NCBI GenBank assembly: GCA_937870635.1
Contig: CALMZP010000111.1
Span: 1 to 44,731 of the forward strand
Length of the DNA stretch: 44,731 nucleotides
DNA from: an uncultured Acidobacteriota bacterium
Lineage (GTDB): Bacteria; Acidobacteriota; Thermoanaerobaculia; Gp7-AA8
Direction of reading: 5' to 3'
The notes under the pieces are model-generated. The model was not told the origin of the DNA. It did no database searches and saw only the letters and a program-made list of their open reading frames with translations. A program made the translations under genes and the position numbers. Every line of letters begins with the position of its first letter. Position 1 is the stretch's first letter. Below are positions 5,898 through 35,129 of the stretch, piece by piece.

Positions 5898-5973
5898 GTT
5901 TCGAAAAACCGGATAGCGCTGTTAACTTATTTCGCTGCAGAGGTTTGCTCTCGATAGAGGACGAGGTGTCACC

Positions 5974-6042
5974 GATTTTGGATTTTGGATTTTGGATTTT
6001 GGATTGGTCCAAAATTCAAAATCCAAAATCCAAAATCCAAAA
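5974..6042. repeat. Inverted heptad-repeat element, unit TTTTGGA
   Basis: The left arm (5974-6005) is a run of TTTTGGA units. After a short loop (GGTCC) the right arm (about 6010-6042) repeats the reverse complement, TCCAAAA. The two arms can form a long AT-rich hairpin. A nearly identical element with the same edge sequences (accGATTTTGG, GGATTGGT) lies at 7583-7646, on the other side of the chorismate mutase/DAHP synthase operon. Here it lies between divergent transcription units. Apart from this element and the aro leader, the 326-base gap 5898-6223 holds nothing I can identify. Confidence 0.9.
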
Positions 6043-6050
6043 TGAATCTC

Positions 6051-7564: not shown

Positions 7565-7582
7565 GGAACGAGCCATCCAACC

Positions 7583-7646
7583 GATTTTGGATTTTGGATT
7601 TTGGATTTTGGATTGGTAAGAAAATCCAAAATCCAAAATCCAAAAT
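7583..7646. repeat. Inverted heptad-repeat element, unit TTTTGGA (second copy)
   Basis: TTTTGGA runs at 7583-7614 are followed, after a short loop (GGTAAG), by TCCAAAA runs at 7621-7646, forming a long hairpin. It is almost the same as the element at 5974-6042, in the same orientation. It fills the space between the convergent 3' ends of aroF (7564) and tyrA (7652), where it could act as a bidirectional 3'-end structure. No canonical T-tract terminator is present here. Confidence 0.9.
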
Positions 7647-7651
7647 GCCTT

Positions 7652-13994: not shown

Positions 13995-14000
13995 GTGGAG

Positions 14001-14250
14001 TGCTTGGTGCTTGGTGCTTGGATCTGAGTGCTGAGTGCGCACGTCACCTGAGCTGCGAAGACAGCGAAGGGCCTCAATCGACGCGATCTTCGCATCCTGA
14101 GGTCCTTCGGCGTCTGCGCGCCTCAGGATGACGGGGGGCTATACACTCGCCGCAAGCACCAAGCACCAAGCACCAAGCACCAAGCACCAAGCACCAAGCA
14201 CCCAGCACCAAGCACCCAGCACCCAGCACCCAGCACCCAGCACCCAGCAC
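14001..14250. repeat. Heptad-repeat element with units TGCTTGG and CAAGCAC/CCAGCAC around a conserved core
   Basis: Three TGCTTGG units (14001-14021) are followed by a central segment with a TCCTGAGG..CCTCAGGA inverted repeat (about 14094-14129). After it come 14 exact 7-base units at 14153-14250: seven CAAGCAC, one CCAGCAC, one CAAGCAC, five CCAGCAC. The left units are the reverse complement of the right ones. The segment just before the right array (14123-14151, TCAGGATGACG...CACTCGCC) also occurs before the right array of the element at 34488-34614, whose units differ. With the promoter at 14257-14290 this accounts for the 334-base gap between the transglycosylase and the LysM gene. Confidence 0.92.
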
Positions 14251-14256
14251 TCGAAT

Positions 14257-18413: not shown

Positions 18414-19675
18414 TGCTCCTCGTCCGGAACCTCTCGCAGATCGCGACGCCCGCCGGCAGGACAGGACTGCGGGGACGCGCGATGCGCGAGCTGCGTGTCG
18501 TCGAGCGCGGAGTGATCGTCATCGACGGCGAACGGTTCGTGTGGACGGGGGTCGAGTCGCAGATGCCCGAGTCGATTCGCCCGGCGATCAGTGACGACTT
18601 TGATGCGCGCGGCGCCACGGCGCTGCCCGGTTTTGTGGACTCGCACACCCACATTCCTTTCGCCGGATTCCGCGAGTCGGAGTTCAATCGCCGCCTTCAG
18701 GGAGAGACTTACGAACAGGTAGCCGCCTCCGGCGGCGGCATTGCGTCCACGGTGAGATCGACACGCGCCGCATCGGAAGAAGAGCTTGCGTCGAATGTGC
18801 TCGCTCGCGCGCGGATGATGGCGCGCTACGGCACCACCACCGTCGAGGCGAAAAGCGGGTACGGTCTCGACAAGGAGTGCGAGCTCAAACAGCTGCGGGC
18901 GATCCGGCGCGCCGCGGCGGATTCCCCGGTGCGTCTCGTGCCCACGTGTCTCGCCGCGCATGAATTTCCGCCGGAGAGCCGCGGCAGCGAGATGGCCCGC
19001 GAGGGTTGGGTCTCGACCGTCATCGGAGAGATTCTTCCGGCTGTTGCCGAAGAAAAGCTCGCCGTGTTCTGCGATGCCTTCGTCGAGCGGGGCGTCTTCA
19101 CGCGAGACCAGGGAGAACGCGTGCTCCGCGCGGGCGCAGCGCTGGGCATGACGCCCCGGCTTCATGCCGATGAGTTGAGCGACACCAACGGCGCATCGCT
19201 CGCGGCGTCGGTCGGCGCGGCATCCGCGGACCACCTCATGCAGGTTTCCGACGCCGGCATCAAAGCGCTGGCGGCATCCGACACGGTCGCCAACCTCCTG
19301 CCGGGCACGAGCCTCTTCCTGATGTCCGAGCGATTCGCGCCGGCGCGCAGATTCATCGAGGCAGGCGCGATCGTGTCGCTCTCGACGGACTGCAACCCCG
19401 GCTCTTCCATGACCGAGTCGATGCAGATCGTGATGCAGCTCGCCACGCTCAGGATGCGGATGACCGTTGAGGAGTCCATCACCGCGGCCACGCTGAACGG
19501 CGCACACTCGTTACGGATGGCGCACGAGATCGGGTCGATCGAGCCCGGCAAAAGAGCGGACCTCGTCCTGATCGACGCGCCGTCGTACCTCCACCTCGTC
19601 TATCACTTCGGGGTCAACCTGGTGACGGCGGTGTTCCGGGACGGGAAGGTCGTTCCGTTAACCGTTAACCGTTAA
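18413..19675 (+). CDS. hutI: Imidazolonepropionase
   Basis: Hydrolyses 4-imidazolone-5-propanoate to N-formimino-L-glutamate, the third step of histidine breakdown. The 420-residue amidohydrolase-fold protein has FVDSHTHIPFAGFRESEF with the metal-binding His pair, TTTVEAKSGYGLD, a later His in HADE (PRLHADELSDT), SADHLMQVS, SLSTDCNPGSS and the C-terminal GSIEPGKRADLVLIDAPSYLHLVYHFGVN. Its ATG shares a base with the DivIVA stop (TGATG). No other hut gene is nearby. The last six residues, PLTVNR, and the stop codon are encoded by the CCGTTAA heptad array at 19655-19682 and replace what is probably the original end. Confidence 0.95.
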   Translation: MLLVRNLSQIATPAGRTGLRGRAMRELRVVERGVIVIDGERFVWTGVESQMPESIRPAISDDFDARGATALPGFVDSHTHIPFAGFRESEFNRRLQGETYEQVAASGGGIASTVRSTRAASEEELASNVLARARMMARYGTTTVEAKSGYGLDKECELKQLRAIRRAAADSPVRLVPTCLAAHEFPPESRGSEMAREGWVSTVIGEILPAVAEEKLAVFCDAFVERGVFTRDQGERVLRAGAALGMTPRLHADELSDTNGASLAASVGAASADHLMQVSDAGIKALAASDTVANLLPGTSLFLMSERFAPARRFIEAGAIVSLSTDCNPGSSMTESMQIVMQLATLRMRMTVEESITAATLNGAHSLRMAHEIGSIEPGKRADLVLIDAPSYLHLVYHFGVNLVTAVFRDGKVVPLTVNR

Positions 19676-19682
19676 CCGTTAA
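19655..19682. repeat. Heptad array CCGTTAA at a convergent junction
   Basis: Four exact CCGTTAA units. On the plus strand they encode the last residues and TAA stop (19673-19675) of hutI. On the minus strand they encode the last two residues and stop (19672-19674) of the hydroxyacid dehydrogenase, so the two convergent genes end inside the same repeat and overlap by 4 bases. A shorter copy at 30131-30156 ends the P1 peptidase gene in the same reading frame. Confidence 0.92.
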
Positions 19683-20598
19683 CGTAAAACTCCTGGATCT
19701 TCCGAAACAGGGTCGCTCCCAGTGCGCCGCGGCACTCCCATGTGCAGCCGCCGATGTGCGGCGTGACGATCAGACGCGGGTCGTCTGGAAACCCTGAGGA
19801 GGGGGGCTCGGGGTCGCATACGTCGAGCGCGAGCCCGCCCAGGTGGTTCGACTCGAGCGCCGCCAGCGCAGCCTTCTGGTCGAGGACCTCTCCGCGGGCG
19901 GCATTGATCAGGATCGATCCCTTTTTCAGAAGGCCGATCTCACGCTCACCCATCATTTGTCGCGTCTCGGCCGTAAGAGGGACATGAAGTGTGACGATCG
20001 CGGAGGTGGCGAGCAGCGCGTCGAGCGAGGGCACCCGCTGGGCGCCGTGTTCCGCGAAATCGGCTTCGGAGATGTAGGGATCGACCGCGTCGACGCTCAT
20101 CCCGAAGGTGGCCGCGAGCCGCGCCACGCGGCGGCCAACCTGTCCCAGGCCAACGATGCCGAGGCGGTAGTAGCGCATCTCGTGGCGGGTGGCGCAGTCT
20201 TCGCGCGGCCAGCGTCCCGCTGTCGTCTCGCGCGTGTAAAAGGGGATGGTCCGGGTGAGGTTGAGGATGTAGCCGATGACGAGCTCGGCGACCGCATTCG
20301 CGTTCTCGCCGGGAAGGTTGAGGATGGTGATGCCTCGCTTCCGGGCGGCACGGTCGTCGATGTTGTCGATTCCGCTCGTGGCCTGAGCGATGAGCTCGAG
20401 CGATTTCGCATTCTCGATGACCCTCCTCGTGACCTTGTTGTAGGCGCGAGTGACCAGGATCGCCGCATCCCCAACGATGGCCGCCAGGTCCTCCTCGGAA
20501 CGGACGGGCTGGACGCGGACGTCGAATCTCCCGTCGGCGCGAGCCATCACCGGGAGCTGCGGATCGACGTCGGCGGCGATGAGGAGTGTCTTGCGCAT
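19672..20598 (-). CDS. D-2-hydroxyacid dehydrogenase (phosphoglycerate dehydrogenase-like)
   Basis: An NAD-dependent D-2-hydroxyacid dehydrogenase of 308 residues. It has the substrate-domain segment QATSGIDNIDDRAARKRGITILNLPGENANAVAELVIGYIL, the Rossmann motif GIVGLGQVGRRVA, INAARGEVLD with the catalytic Arg, CDPEPP with the Glu and TPHIGGCTWEC with the catalytic His. The best match in pattern is the SerA-like group (3-phosphoglycerate dehydrogenase without ACT domain), but other substrates cannot be excluded. It starts 23 bases from the divergent YfhO-like gene. Its 3' end lies in the heptad array shared with hutI. Confidence 0.88.
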   Translation of the reverse strand: MRKTLLIAADVDPQLPVMARADGRFDVRVQPVRSEEDLAAIVGDAAILVTRAYNKVTRRVIENAKSLELIAQATSGIDNIDDRAARKRGITILNLPGENANAVAELVIGYILNLTRTIPFYTRETTAGRWPREDCATRHEMRYYRLGIVGLGQVGRRVARLAATFGMSVDAVDPYISEADFAEHGAQRVPSLDALLATSAIVTLHVPLTAETRQMMGEREIGLLKKGSILINAARGEVLDQKAALAALESNHLGGLALDVCDPEPPSSGFPDDPRLIVTPHIGGCTWECRGALGATLFRKIQEFYVNG

Positions 20599-29055: not shown

Positions 29056-30153
29056 ATGAACGTTCAAAGCCGCATTTCGTTACTGGTTCTCCTTCTTTTT
29101 GGAGCGCTCGCCGCGGGCGCCGAAACGCGGCCCAGGGCGCGTGAGATCGGGCTCGCTCCGGGGATTCTGTCCCCGGGGCCGCTGAATGCGATCACCGACG
29201 TCGCGGGCGTCCGCGTCGGGCATGCGACCGTCGTGCGCGGCGAGGCCGTGCGCACCGGTGTGACTGCCGTGATCCCGCACGGGGGAAATCTCTTCCGCGA
29301 GAAAGTTCCCGGCGCGGTCTTCGTCGGCAACGGCTTCGGAAAGCTCATGGGCTCGACCCAGATCGACGAACTGGGCGAGATCGAATCGCCAATCCTCCTG
29401 ACGAATACGCTCAACGTCGGCCGTGTGGCCGACGCCGCCATTGATTACATGCTCGCCCTTCCGGGGAACGAATCGGTACGTTCGATCAACATCGTCGTCG
29501 GCGAAACGAACGACGGAGGACTGAATGACATCCGAGGCAGGCACGTCGCAGCGGAGGATGTGCTGCGCGCGATCGGAGAGGCGAAAGAAGGTGCGGTCGC
29601 CGAAGGGAGCGTCGGTGCGGGGACGGGCACCATGGCCTTCGGTTTCAAGGGAGGGATCGGGACTTCGTCGCGGCGCCTGACAGAAAAACAGGGCGGATAC
29701 ACGGTAGGCGTTCTCGTGCAGTCGAACTTCGGAGGCGTCCTCACCATCGCCGGCGCGCCGATCGGGCGCGAGCTCGATCGGGCTCGTGGCGACGGTTCGA
29801 TCATGATCGTGATCGCGACCGACGCTCCGGTCGATGCTCGCAACCTGAAGCGGATGGGAGCGCGCGCCATGATGGGCCTCGCGCGCACGGGCGCGGCGGG
29901 CACGAATGGCAGCGGCGATTACGCGATCGCATTCAGCACGGTCCGCAATGCACCGAAACTCGTGGCGAATGACGAGATGTCACCGCTTTTCCTGGCGACC
30001 ATCGAAGCCACGGAGGAGGCGATTTACAACTCGCTGTTCAAGGCGACCAGCGTGACCAGCTCCATCGGAAAGGCCGAAGCGCTGCCGATACCGGAGGTCG
30101 TGCGCATTCTGCGGGAGCATGGGGTCGTCAAACCGTTAACCGTTAACCGTTAA
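29056..30153 (+). CDS. Secreted P1-family (DmpA-like) aminopeptidase
   Basis: A 365-residue self-processing Ntn-type hydrolase of the P1 family (L-aminopeptidase D-Ala-esterase/amidase, DmpA). A signal peptide (about 1-22, ending LAAGAETR) sends it to the periplasm. Family features: ITDVAGVRVGHATVVRG near the N terminus, TAVIPHGGNLF, LLTNTLNVGRVADA, VVGETNDGGLND, GTGTMAFGFKGGIGTSSR and the cleavage/nucleophile region GTNGSGDYAIAFST, where the chain is expected to be cut before the Ser. The start ATG 29056 has AGGGA 5 bases upstream. The last six residues, PLTVNR, come from a heptad array and match the end of the unrelated HutI. Confidence 0.9.
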   Translation: MNVQSRISLLVLLLFGALAAGAETRPRAREIGLAPGILSPGPLNAITDVAGVRVGHATVVRGEAVRTGVTAVIPHGGNLFREKVPGAVFVGNGFGKLMGSTQIDELGEIESPILLTNTLNVGRVADAAIDYMLALPGNESVRSINIVVGETNDGGLNDIRGRHVAAEDVLRAIGEAKEGAVAEGSVGAGTGTMAFGFKGGIGTSSRRLTEKQGGYTVGVLVQSNFGGVLTIAGAPIGRELDRARGDGSIMIVIATDAPVDARNLKRMGARAMMGLARTGAAGTNGSGDYAIAFSTVRNAPKLVANDEMSPLFLATIEATEEAIYNSLFKATSVTSSIGKAEALPIPEVVRILREHGVVKPLTVNR

Positions 30154-30156
30154 CCG
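30131..30156. repeat. Heptad array CCGTTAA at the end of the P1 peptidase gene
   Basis: Three CCGTTAA units (30133-30153) with partial flanks. They encode the C-terminal PLTVNR and the TAA stop of the peptidase in the same phase as in hutI (19655-19682). Confidence 0.9.
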
Positions 30157-30180
30157 AAGTGCGCTGGCGAGGATTCTGTG

Positions 30181-30324
30181 GTGGAGCCGCGGGCGATCCC
30201 GCCCGCCGATGGTGTTCCGCAAAAAGGCCGCGGGCGAGGTCGCCCGCGCTCCACTGATCTGCGTGCGAAACGCGAAACCCGTGCGGTCGCCATATCCGGT
30301 GGAGCGCGGGCGACCTCGCCCGCG
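30181..30324. repeat. Three copies of a GC-rich palindromic repeat
   Basis: Positions 30229-30254 and 30299-30324 are perfect 26-base reverse complements, GTGGAG followed by CGCGGGCGACCTCGCCCGCG. Each copy is itself a near-perfect hairpin, so the pair can fold locally or with each other. A third, diverged copy is at 30181-30207. They fill the space between the convergent P1 peptidase and DUF488 genes. No T-tract follows, so they are REP-like palindromes rather than classical terminators. Confidence 0.88.
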
Positions 30325-30344
30325 TCCGGTCCCTCCGTCGCACC

Positions 30345-34487: not shown

Positions 34488-34614
34488 ACCGTTAGCCGTT
34501 AGCCGTTAGCCGGCAACGCGGGTCGCGGCAAGCACGTCAGGATGACGTGGGGCTACACTCGCCACGGCTAACGGCTAACGGCTAACGGCTAACGGCTAAC
34601 GGTGAACGGTTAAC
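34488..34614. repeat. Inverted heptad-repeat element, unit GTTAGCC, around the conserved core
   Basis: Three GTTAGCC units (34491-34511) are followed by a core of about 54 bases. After it come five GGCTAAC units (34566-34600), one GGTGAAC and one GGTTAAC (34601-34614). The arms are reverse complements. The last unit equals the CCGTTAA-type unit of the other arrays, so GTTAGCC and GTTAACC are variants of one lineage. The core end (34537-34563, TCAGGATGACG...CACTCGCC) matches 14123-14151. The element fills the space between the thiolase and the dehalogenase pseudogene and encodes the latter's C terminus. Confidence 0.92.
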
Positions 34615-35129
34615 GCCGTCCGCGAGCTCCGCGAGCGTCCGGAACTCCATCGCCGGCTGTCCGCCCGGCAGCGCCCGGTGAGAGTGGCGGTTGATCCACG
34701 CTGTCGGGATGCGAGGGCGTTCGCGGGGACGATGTCGTGGAAGTTGCTCTGCGCGGCGTGCATCCAGCGGTGATTGCCGATCTTTCTGCGCGCTTCTTCG
34801 AAATGTGCGCGGTCCGGTTTGTAGGATTTGACCTGATGTGCCGTGACGATGATGTCGAAGGCCACCGGGAAATGGCGACGGGTTCCTTCGAGAAGATCGT
34901 CGTCGACGTTCGTGTGGGCGGCGCTCTCGCTCAGGACGGAGCGGTAGCTCCGATACCCCTCGGCTTCCACCTTGCGTTCGTTCGTCGCGTAGGTCTCGAT
35001 GATTCGCGACTCGTCGAGACGGACGCCGTCTTGCGCAGCGGCTTTACCGAATACGGTGCGGATCCCCTCTTCCCAGTCGATCAGCGTCCCATAACGGTCG
35101 AAAGTGATGACTTCGAATGCCGCATCCAT
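34582..35129 (-). pseudogene. Haloacid dehalogenase-like hydrolase, frameshifted
   Basis: The N-terminal part is a type II haloacid dehalogenase-like HAD protein: VITFDRYGTLIDWEEGI with the nucleophilic Asp11, then FDIIVTAHQVKSYKPDRAHFEEA with the Lys, and WMHAAQSNFHDIVPANAL. After ANAL the frame continues as unrelated sequence. One base is missing near 34711-34713, where family members read ALGIP. Shifting the frame there restores IPTAWINRHSHRALPGG and MEFRTLAELADG and runs to a TAG at 34582-34584. Unshifted, the ORF stops at 34596 with the tail ALTVHR. This is either a real inactivating deletion or a sequencing or assembly error. In both frames the C terminus is encoded by heptad repeats. 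Confidence 0.8.

Follow-up and report, generated by a model that had tools for sequence, protein, structure and literature searches.

REP sequences lying within longer palindromes have been described in A. variabilis, H. neapolitanus and T. roseum (Di Nocera et al. 2013, PMC3733652). As that report portrays them, members of the CGTC-tagged REP superfamily bear at one end a CGTC (or TGTC/CCTC) tag that stays unpaired, together with an 8-9 bp stem, a 4-5 nt loop and a CCA-like tail, occur mainly as inverted dimers, and have no linked transposase (PMC3733652).

Tandem repeats of seven nucleotides form a second group of dispersed elements. In the P6b region of the Nostoc trnL intron, 7-nt repeats build a stem with complementary arms, the repeat class at a given place can be exchanged for another, and side stem-loops arise from inserts (Kaasalainen et al. 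2015, PMC4476775). Heptads of the GGGAATC type in Xanthomonas and Nostoc are intergenic and lie near stop or start codons, with 70 and 75 inverted heptad pairs in convergent orientation in two Xanthomonas genomes (PMC4692102). In Beggiatoaceae, many intergenic sets of the TAACTGA repeat hug gene starts, their mechanism of spread being unknown (PMC4679880). Each of these features, REPs lodged in palindromes, class replacement in a heptad stem (for one intron) and heptads in inverted pairs (for Xanthomonas), is already in print.

Here we analyse a stretch of 44,731 nucleotides (the window), which is contig C111 of the 4.52 Mb genome assembly of an uncultured Acidobacteriota bacterium (G000). The heptad arrays in this genome, which we take to be STRR-like intergenic heptanucleotide tandem repeats, are tandem 7-mers, intergenic and present in many copies. 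Unlike them, the Nostoc P6b stem is described as one locus in a group I intron, with two classes and with neither a genome-wide set nor a REP core (PMC4476775). In Xanthomonas and Nostoc, each genome has a single G-rich heptad, considered there as a quadruplex, and palindromes between the pairs are not mentioned in the excerpted part of the report (PMC4692102). The Beggiatoaceae sets are almost all direct repeats of one heptad, with one inverted set (PMC4679880). Our literature searches found no prior report of heptad-flanked REPs.

Results

The sequence-only reading of the window had noticed that the same core is enclosed by different heptad arrays at 34537 and 14123. Both sites are as it described, and their anatomy is given in Table 1 together with the other heptad sites of the window. 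The right-hand match reads TCAGGATGACG-T-GGGG-CTA-CACTCGCC at 34537 and TCAGGATGACG-GGGGG-CTA-TA-CACTCGCC at 14123; the reported shared string is thus present at both, but the spacers differ. Across the genome, TCAGGATGACG...CACTCGCC has four matches (34537, 14123, L009 and L012) versus none for its control, and the surrounding arrays are GGTTAAC at L009 and L012, GGCTAAC at 34537 and CAAGCAC at 14123. Since GGCTAAC is GGTTAAC with one letter changed, the heptad class truly changed only at 14123 among these four. The 14123 core is nearest to that of L040 (5.4%), which also has CAAGCAC arrays, and then to that of L069 (6.4%), with GGTTAAC arrays, so a single class switch common to 14123 and L040 is possible. 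The arm switch therefore looks genuine only at 14123, perhaps with L040. A CAAGCAC word within the left edges of the GGTTAAC class (GGCAAGCACG) was considered as the seed of the 14123 arms and rejected because its orientation is wrong.

The core at 34537 is a deletion remnant. Its palindrome interior is gone, and CACG adjoins TCAGGATGACG directly, a junction consistent with the product expected from deleting everything between two TCA repeats. The same collapse junction lies between other arms at L014, and hairpin-type deletions are found at both L011 and L014.

Table 1. Heptad arms, loop edges and palindromes in the window
Feature	Coordinates	Strand	Basis and remarks
Core-free heptad hairpin GATTTTG/CAAAATC	5973..6044	+	Loop 3 nt; divergent ORFs on either side
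Core-free heptad hairpin GATTTTG/CAAAATC	7582..7648	+	Loop 4 nt; two convergent gene ends on either side
Left heptad arm (GTGCTTG)3	13999..14022	+	5 bp past stop codon 13992-13994 of SLT transglycosylase gene
Intact core 1 palindrome CACGTCACCTGAGC...GCCTCAGGATGACG	14040..14133 (palindrome)	+	Sequence, comparison of core loci, folding
Right loop edge GGGGGCTATACACTCGCC	14134..14151	+	GGTTAAC-class type despite CAAGCAC arms
Right heptad arm (CAAGCAC)14 with CCAGCAC variants	14152..14252	+	Sequence, TRF
Lone GGTTAAC-class array	19654..19684	+	Covers end of amidohydrolase ORF
GGTTAAC-class left arm (AACCGTT)n	30130..30157	+	Followed by the left loop edge of the class, GAAGTGCGCTGGCGAGGAT
Three core-3 palindromes (GCGGGCGACCTCGCCCGC type)	30181..30330	.	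Occupy the usual core-1 position
Left heptad arm (CCGTTAG)3.4 = (GTTAGCC)3.4	34488..34512	+	Sequence, TRF; directly after thiolase stop codon 34485-34487
Left loop edge GCAACGCGGGTCGCGGCAAG of GGTTAAC-class hairpin	34513..34532	+	Sequence; similar left edges in L012, L019, L070
Collapsed core 1, CACGTCAGGATGACGTG = CACG / TCAGGATGACGTG	34533..34549	+	Sequence
Right loop edge GGGCTACACTCGCC, GGTTAAC-class feature	34550..34563	+	Sequence comparison of loci
Right heptad arm (ACGGCTA)n = (GGCTAAC)n	34563..34615	+	TRF; last units are variants GGTGAAC, GGTTAAC

A genome search for the core and its flanking heptads, as the earlier reading had proposed, gave 127 matches to TCAGGATGACG and one to its reversed control. 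TCAGGATGACG is one end of an imperfect palindrome of ~90 bp, referred to here as core 1, which is REP-like and dimeric and belongs to the TCCTGAGG palindrome family. Among the matches listed, which did not comprise all 127, 108 distinct core loci were read after the duplicates L005, L056 and L165 had been dropped. In 70 of them the inverted partner CGTCAYCCTGAG (≤3 mismatches) lies 40-125 bp upstream, supplying the second, inverted end that defines the inverted dimers of CGTC REPs. The ends of core 1 are sharp, with CA on the left and TG on the right in 65 of 70 loci each, and target-site duplications of the kind that mark a MITE were no more frequent at 69 cores than expected from shuffling their flanks. 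In core 1 two CGTC-tagged units are joined head-out (CACGTCAYCCTGAG...CTCAGGATGACGTG), and each half folds with CGTC unpaired, followed by a stem opening with ATCCT. The monomer fold comprises nine pairs (5+4 around an internal loop), a 6 nt loop and the tail CTC, whereas the core-1 monomer of a relative has seven pairs and a 3 nt loop; in both, the stem opens with two A-T pairs. Core 1 thus resembles the CGTC REPs, as that superfamily is outlined in the source, in its unpaired CGTC, AT-starting stem and inverted dimer with outward tags, but departs from them in stem, loop and tail, and differs from families 1-4 as given there (PMC3733652). A literature search with the core string returned primer-like matches and, among the papers listed, none on this repeat.

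Heptad arrays flank the 108 core loci on both sides in 56 cases, on the right only in 12, on the left only in 6 and on neither side in 34, the last group including some chance matches inside genes. Within the 70 palindromic loci, 46 have arrays on both sides and 52 on at least one. The arms are reverse complements (≤1 mismatch) in 51 of the 56 two-sided loci, against a mean of 15.3 and a maximum of 27 in 2000 shuffles, and in 26 of 31 when the GGTTAAC class is left out (shuffle mean 7.4, maximum 18). The arrangement noticed at two sites is thus a general one. The earlier reading had also named what would speak against it, namely a core that is just a diverged copy of the more general palindrome family with no tendency to be flanked by heptads; core 1 is indeed a copy of that family, yet its tendency to heptad flanks is strong.

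The right arms fall into the classes AACGGTT (29), AAGCACC (7), AAGGTCC (7), ATCGTTC (5), ATCCTTC (4), ACTCGTC (4) and ACCCAGC (3), with nine singles. The genome contains seven or more plainly distinct heptad words, and three heptad patterns gave 172, 285 and 481 genome matches. Outside the GGTTAAC group, one fixed polarity, with the same word strand in the 5' arm, was found in 52 of 52 hairpins, a count trivially satisfied by words occurring once; the GGTTAAC word, itself largely palindromic (GTTAAC), occurs in both senses (L356, L365). As the classes are shared genome-wide and the polarity is fixed, the earlier proposal that the ends are replaced by locally templated heptads is unsupported. 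Instead, shared classes, core-free hairpins and fixed polarity point to dispersed heptad families. In-array variants at L012 lack the mirror change on the opposite arm. At L026 and L087 the heptad class of the left arm differs from that of the right arm, and these loci may be recombinants through the core. Contig ends (C7, C24, C30, C41, C46, C64, C93, C127 and C148 of G000) often lie within or near heptad arrays; the assembly thus seems to break there, and arrays are probably undercounted.

The 3' arm of the GGTTAAC class is preceded by TTACRCTC-CGC (TACACTC-CGCC at the two sites described above). ACRCTC stands ≤25 nt upstream of the arm in 23 of 31 GGTTAAC-class elements versus 2 of 37 elements of other classes, these two being the 14123 site and L032, where the motif precedes the core end. 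This edge is also found in hairpins in which core 3 replaces core 1 (L342, L349), and is absent in L347. Because the edge is kept whatever the core, TCAGGATGACG is to be read as a palindrome end and CTACACTCGCC as a hairpin loop edge. A fixed core with exchangeable arms, as the sequence-only reading put it, therefore holds in so far as core 1 recurs between different heptads, but what was taken for one core is two parts, a core-1 end and the loop edge of a GGTTAAC hairpin. The GGACCTT class has a CTCCC edge, present in core-free and core-1 hairpins alike but only partially: with two edges read per hairpin, it stood at 10 of 31 edges where the hairpin had been scored as core-free and at 4 of 11 where core 1 was present. 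Recognisable loop edges were found for two heptad classes, those of most classes being too variable for testing insertion order. Long right spacers of the GGTTAAC class (L002, L157, L001, L039, L069, L349) contain the promoter-like TTGAC(G/T)-N16/17-TACGCT, directed outward through the right arm. A promoter reading of TTGACG-N16-TTACGCT in these spacers was rejected, its first half being missing in most elements.

Hairpins and palindromes also exist apart from each other. Among 60 parsed hairpins, a mix of loci picked by core and by heptad, 37 contain core 1, 16 are core-free with a loop <45 nt, and 7 have a longer loop without core 1. When 36 sites were picked by heptad alone, 21 bore a mark of core 1, 2 or 3 (L210, with a loop of only 10 nt, being doubtful among them) and 15 bore none. 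Cores 2 and 3 were scored by short-motif matching, single-sequence nhmmer having missed most copies plain by eye; at L367, scored 'none' by motif matching, core 3 was read by eye. Core 2 (TGTCATCCCGAGCG...CTCGGGATGACA) has a TGTC tag, lacks the first A-T pair of the stem and lies in the long loops of L194, L207, L217 and L376, and core 3 (GGTGGAGCGCGGGCGACC...CTCCAC) in those of L189, L199 and L367. One or the other replaces core 1 within the same heptad classes at L189, L199, L342, L349, L367 and L376. About half of the core-1 copies sit in heptad-hairpin loops; by a rough estimate from 36 sites per 90 listed heptad matches, a few hundred hairpins would exist, with loops making up well below 1% of the genome. 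Core 3 has 249 genome matches, and 24 of its sites comprised 18 with no array, 4 with an unmatched or one-sided array and 2 with matched arms. As core 3 lies mostly outside heptads, the loop preference is not general to all palindromes. The GATGAAG hairpin at L376, with core 2 in its loop, is very long (~11 units per arm), and at L368 a CGACCTT heptad hairpin is nested in the loop of a GGACCTT hairpin.

In a set of 71 palindromic cores, the closest heptad-bearing neighbour shared the heptad class in 27 of 53 comparisons (shuffle mean 13.5, maximum 27), and outside the GGTTAAC class in 7 of 30 (shuffle mean 3.9). In these other classes the spacers are dissimilar and cores of different classes are interleaved, lying only 5-10% apart in pairs such as L068/L034 and L072/L017. 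On these counts, GGTTAAC composites look multiplied as units, while the other classes combine similar cores with different hairpins, which bears out the modular repeat proposed earlier. The nearest-neighbour test was used in place of a tree because the core tree is weakly resolved; parsimony on the 71-core tree gave 22 class changes, with few columns and mostly open forks.

Several period-7 runs were found in the window at the threshold used, compared with an average of 0.0 in 20 block shuffles. At 7582, 13999, 19654, 30130 and 34488, which make up five of its six heptad sites, the repeats overlap or lie ≤20 bp from the 3' end of an ORF with a Pfam match. No right arm was found at the 30130 site, where the left arm and its edge precede the three core-3 palindromes; this composite (30130-30330) has a peptidase S58 gene on one side and an opposite-strand DUF488 gene on the other. 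The placing at gene ends agrees with that given for REPs (PMC3733652) and for heptads (PMC4692102).

The potential to form RNA structures noted by the earlier reading is supported by folding predictions, which give the units strong structures (RNA z -7.5 and -9.2), with energies far under those of shuffles both as RNA and as DNA. The element could be an mRNA 3'-end hairpin, we infer. An intrinsic terminator consists of a GC-rich hairpin followed by a T run. No T run follows the hairpin end at 34615, so the element at 34488-34615 does not qualify as an intrinsic terminator. An Rfam search of the window returned one tRNA only, and no family at the hairpins.

Across 18 family genomes, a 13-mer of the core end occurs 109 times in the own genome, 23 times in G016, 14 times in G001 and 0-5 times in each of the others. 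All 14 matches in G001 were read and none is heptad-flanked, while among the 16 of 23 places read in G016, L146 and L185 hold core 1 between other heptads, AGCTCTT and GGTCTTA. The GGTTAAC word, searched as a 16-mer, occurs in 4 of 148 genomes of the class, and the composite of core 1 and GGTTAAC array had no exact match in named GTDB genomes, a search that may exclude the own genome. GGTTAAC-class arrays in relatives stop exactly at an ATG resembling a start codon (L378 and L381 in G009, L379 in G015), and at L384 in G015 a GCAGAAT hairpin adjoins a GGTTAAC-class array, hairpins with other words thus combining in a relative too. The nearest named relatives of the thiolase beside the element are the Acidobacteria MAGs gp7 AA9 (82% identity) and BP6.bin107 (76%). 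The 3' flanks of the orthologous thiolase in 16 family relatives (59 bp to 1.5 kb) contain neither the exact core nor the array, and are too diverged for base-exact comparison. None of them supplied the empty counterpart of an occupied locus, so the order of events was not observed at a single site.

REPs or REPINs mobilised by a RAYT flank the gene for this tyrosine transposase, and Y1 transposases of the IS200/IS605 type insert into single-stranded DNA. The earlier reading had suggested looking for a transposase associated with such cores; the genome has three Y1_Tnp genes, and their 3.3 kb loci contain neither an exact core copy nor a heptad array. At L001 (624-1511, G000:C7), a GGTTAAC/core-1 composite is broken by a 231-aa ORF, apparently truncated, with the IS110 DEDD transposase domain PF01548. 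REPs are known targets of IS110 elements.

Discussion

Taking together the anatomy of the elements, their modularity in both directions, the sharp core ends, the absent target duplication and the collapsed derivatives, we consider it fairly probable that two independent repeat systems are nested here, heptad hairpins whose loops accumulate REP-like palindromes. The first system would consist of inverted tandem 7-mer arrays placed at gene boundaries, and the second of REP-like palindromes, cores 1, 2 and 3, housed in the hairpin loops. An extruded heptad hairpin would expose a single-stranded loop, and REP-like units would most likely insert there by means of a putative enzyme, much as known REPs occupy other palindromes, leaving the loop edges beside the arms. 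The GGTTAAC-class composites would additionally have multiplied as units, because their edges are shared and their cores near-identical, and the 34537 copy would afterwards have lost its palindrome interior.

Alternatively, the arms may have grown around the palindromes, stalled replication, slippage and template switching adding matched heptads, so that each core recruits whichever heptad arises. Matched arms with differing heptads fit such growth, the unmirrored variants at L012 show slippage within arms, and the deletions at L011 and L014 suggest that palindromes provoke replication errors. We nevertheless regard it as unlikely, given that limited heptad classes recur genome-wide with polarity fixed in 52 of 52 hairpins, that many hairpins are palindrome-free (16 of 60, loops <45 nt), that loop edges are shared regardless of the core, and that the G001 cores lack heptads. 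A single composite mobile unit, in which recombination or gene conversion with another unit now and then exchanges the arms, seems quite improbable. Of the alternatives, it comes nearest to the proposal of the sequence-only reading. Although the GGTTAAC-class elements have arms, edges and cores in common and nearest neighbours mostly within the class, and 14123 has a GGTTAAC-type edge between CAAGCAC arms, the other classes show dissimilar spacers and interleaved cores, a swap is visible only at 14123, perhaps with L040, and palindromes and hairpins each also exist alone. The Nostoc trnL P6b stem provides a documented case of one heptad class replacing another at a single site (PMC4476775).

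Selection for pairing in a functional RNA would explain the gene-end hairpins as terminators or mRNA stabilisers in which heptads are free to co-change. Such a role agrees with the strong folds (z -7.5 and -9.2) and with the nearness of five of the six window sites to a stop codon (overlapping or ≤20 bp). It is very improbable in our view, as no T run stands at 34616, in-array variants break pairs on one arm, no Rfam family matches the hairpins, and the recurrence of only certain heptads and palindromes would be unexplained.

Returning to insertion of REP-like palindromes into heptad-hairpin loops, we note a bolder extension, unlikely as it stands, in which the hairpins spread themselves, the 7-nt word being copied to both arms. 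Arm pairs would then be replaced by another class with the loop content kept (14123/L040 versus L009/L011/L012), and the loops would be landing sites of a general kind, receiving REP-like palindromes and, as at L368, even further heptad hairpins. If this were true, an arm-copying process, perhaps hairpin-templated synthesis, would be common to these elements and the Nostoc P6b stem.

What looks new here is the joining of known features, with one repeat family settled inside another. Unlike the palindromes hosting REPs in the earlier report (PMC3733652), the host palindromes in this genome are iterated heptads of several classes, used by three palindrome kinds. Heptad hairpins also offer a simple reason for assembly breaks at these places. 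Bacteria commonly contain heptad repeats as well as REPs, and the way in which each of them spreads is for the most part unsettled. Several heptad classes in fixed-polarity hairpins, with three palindrome kinds in their loops, amount to a natural experiment: as arms and cores are separable, target choice, arm copying and palindrome loss can be traced one by one.
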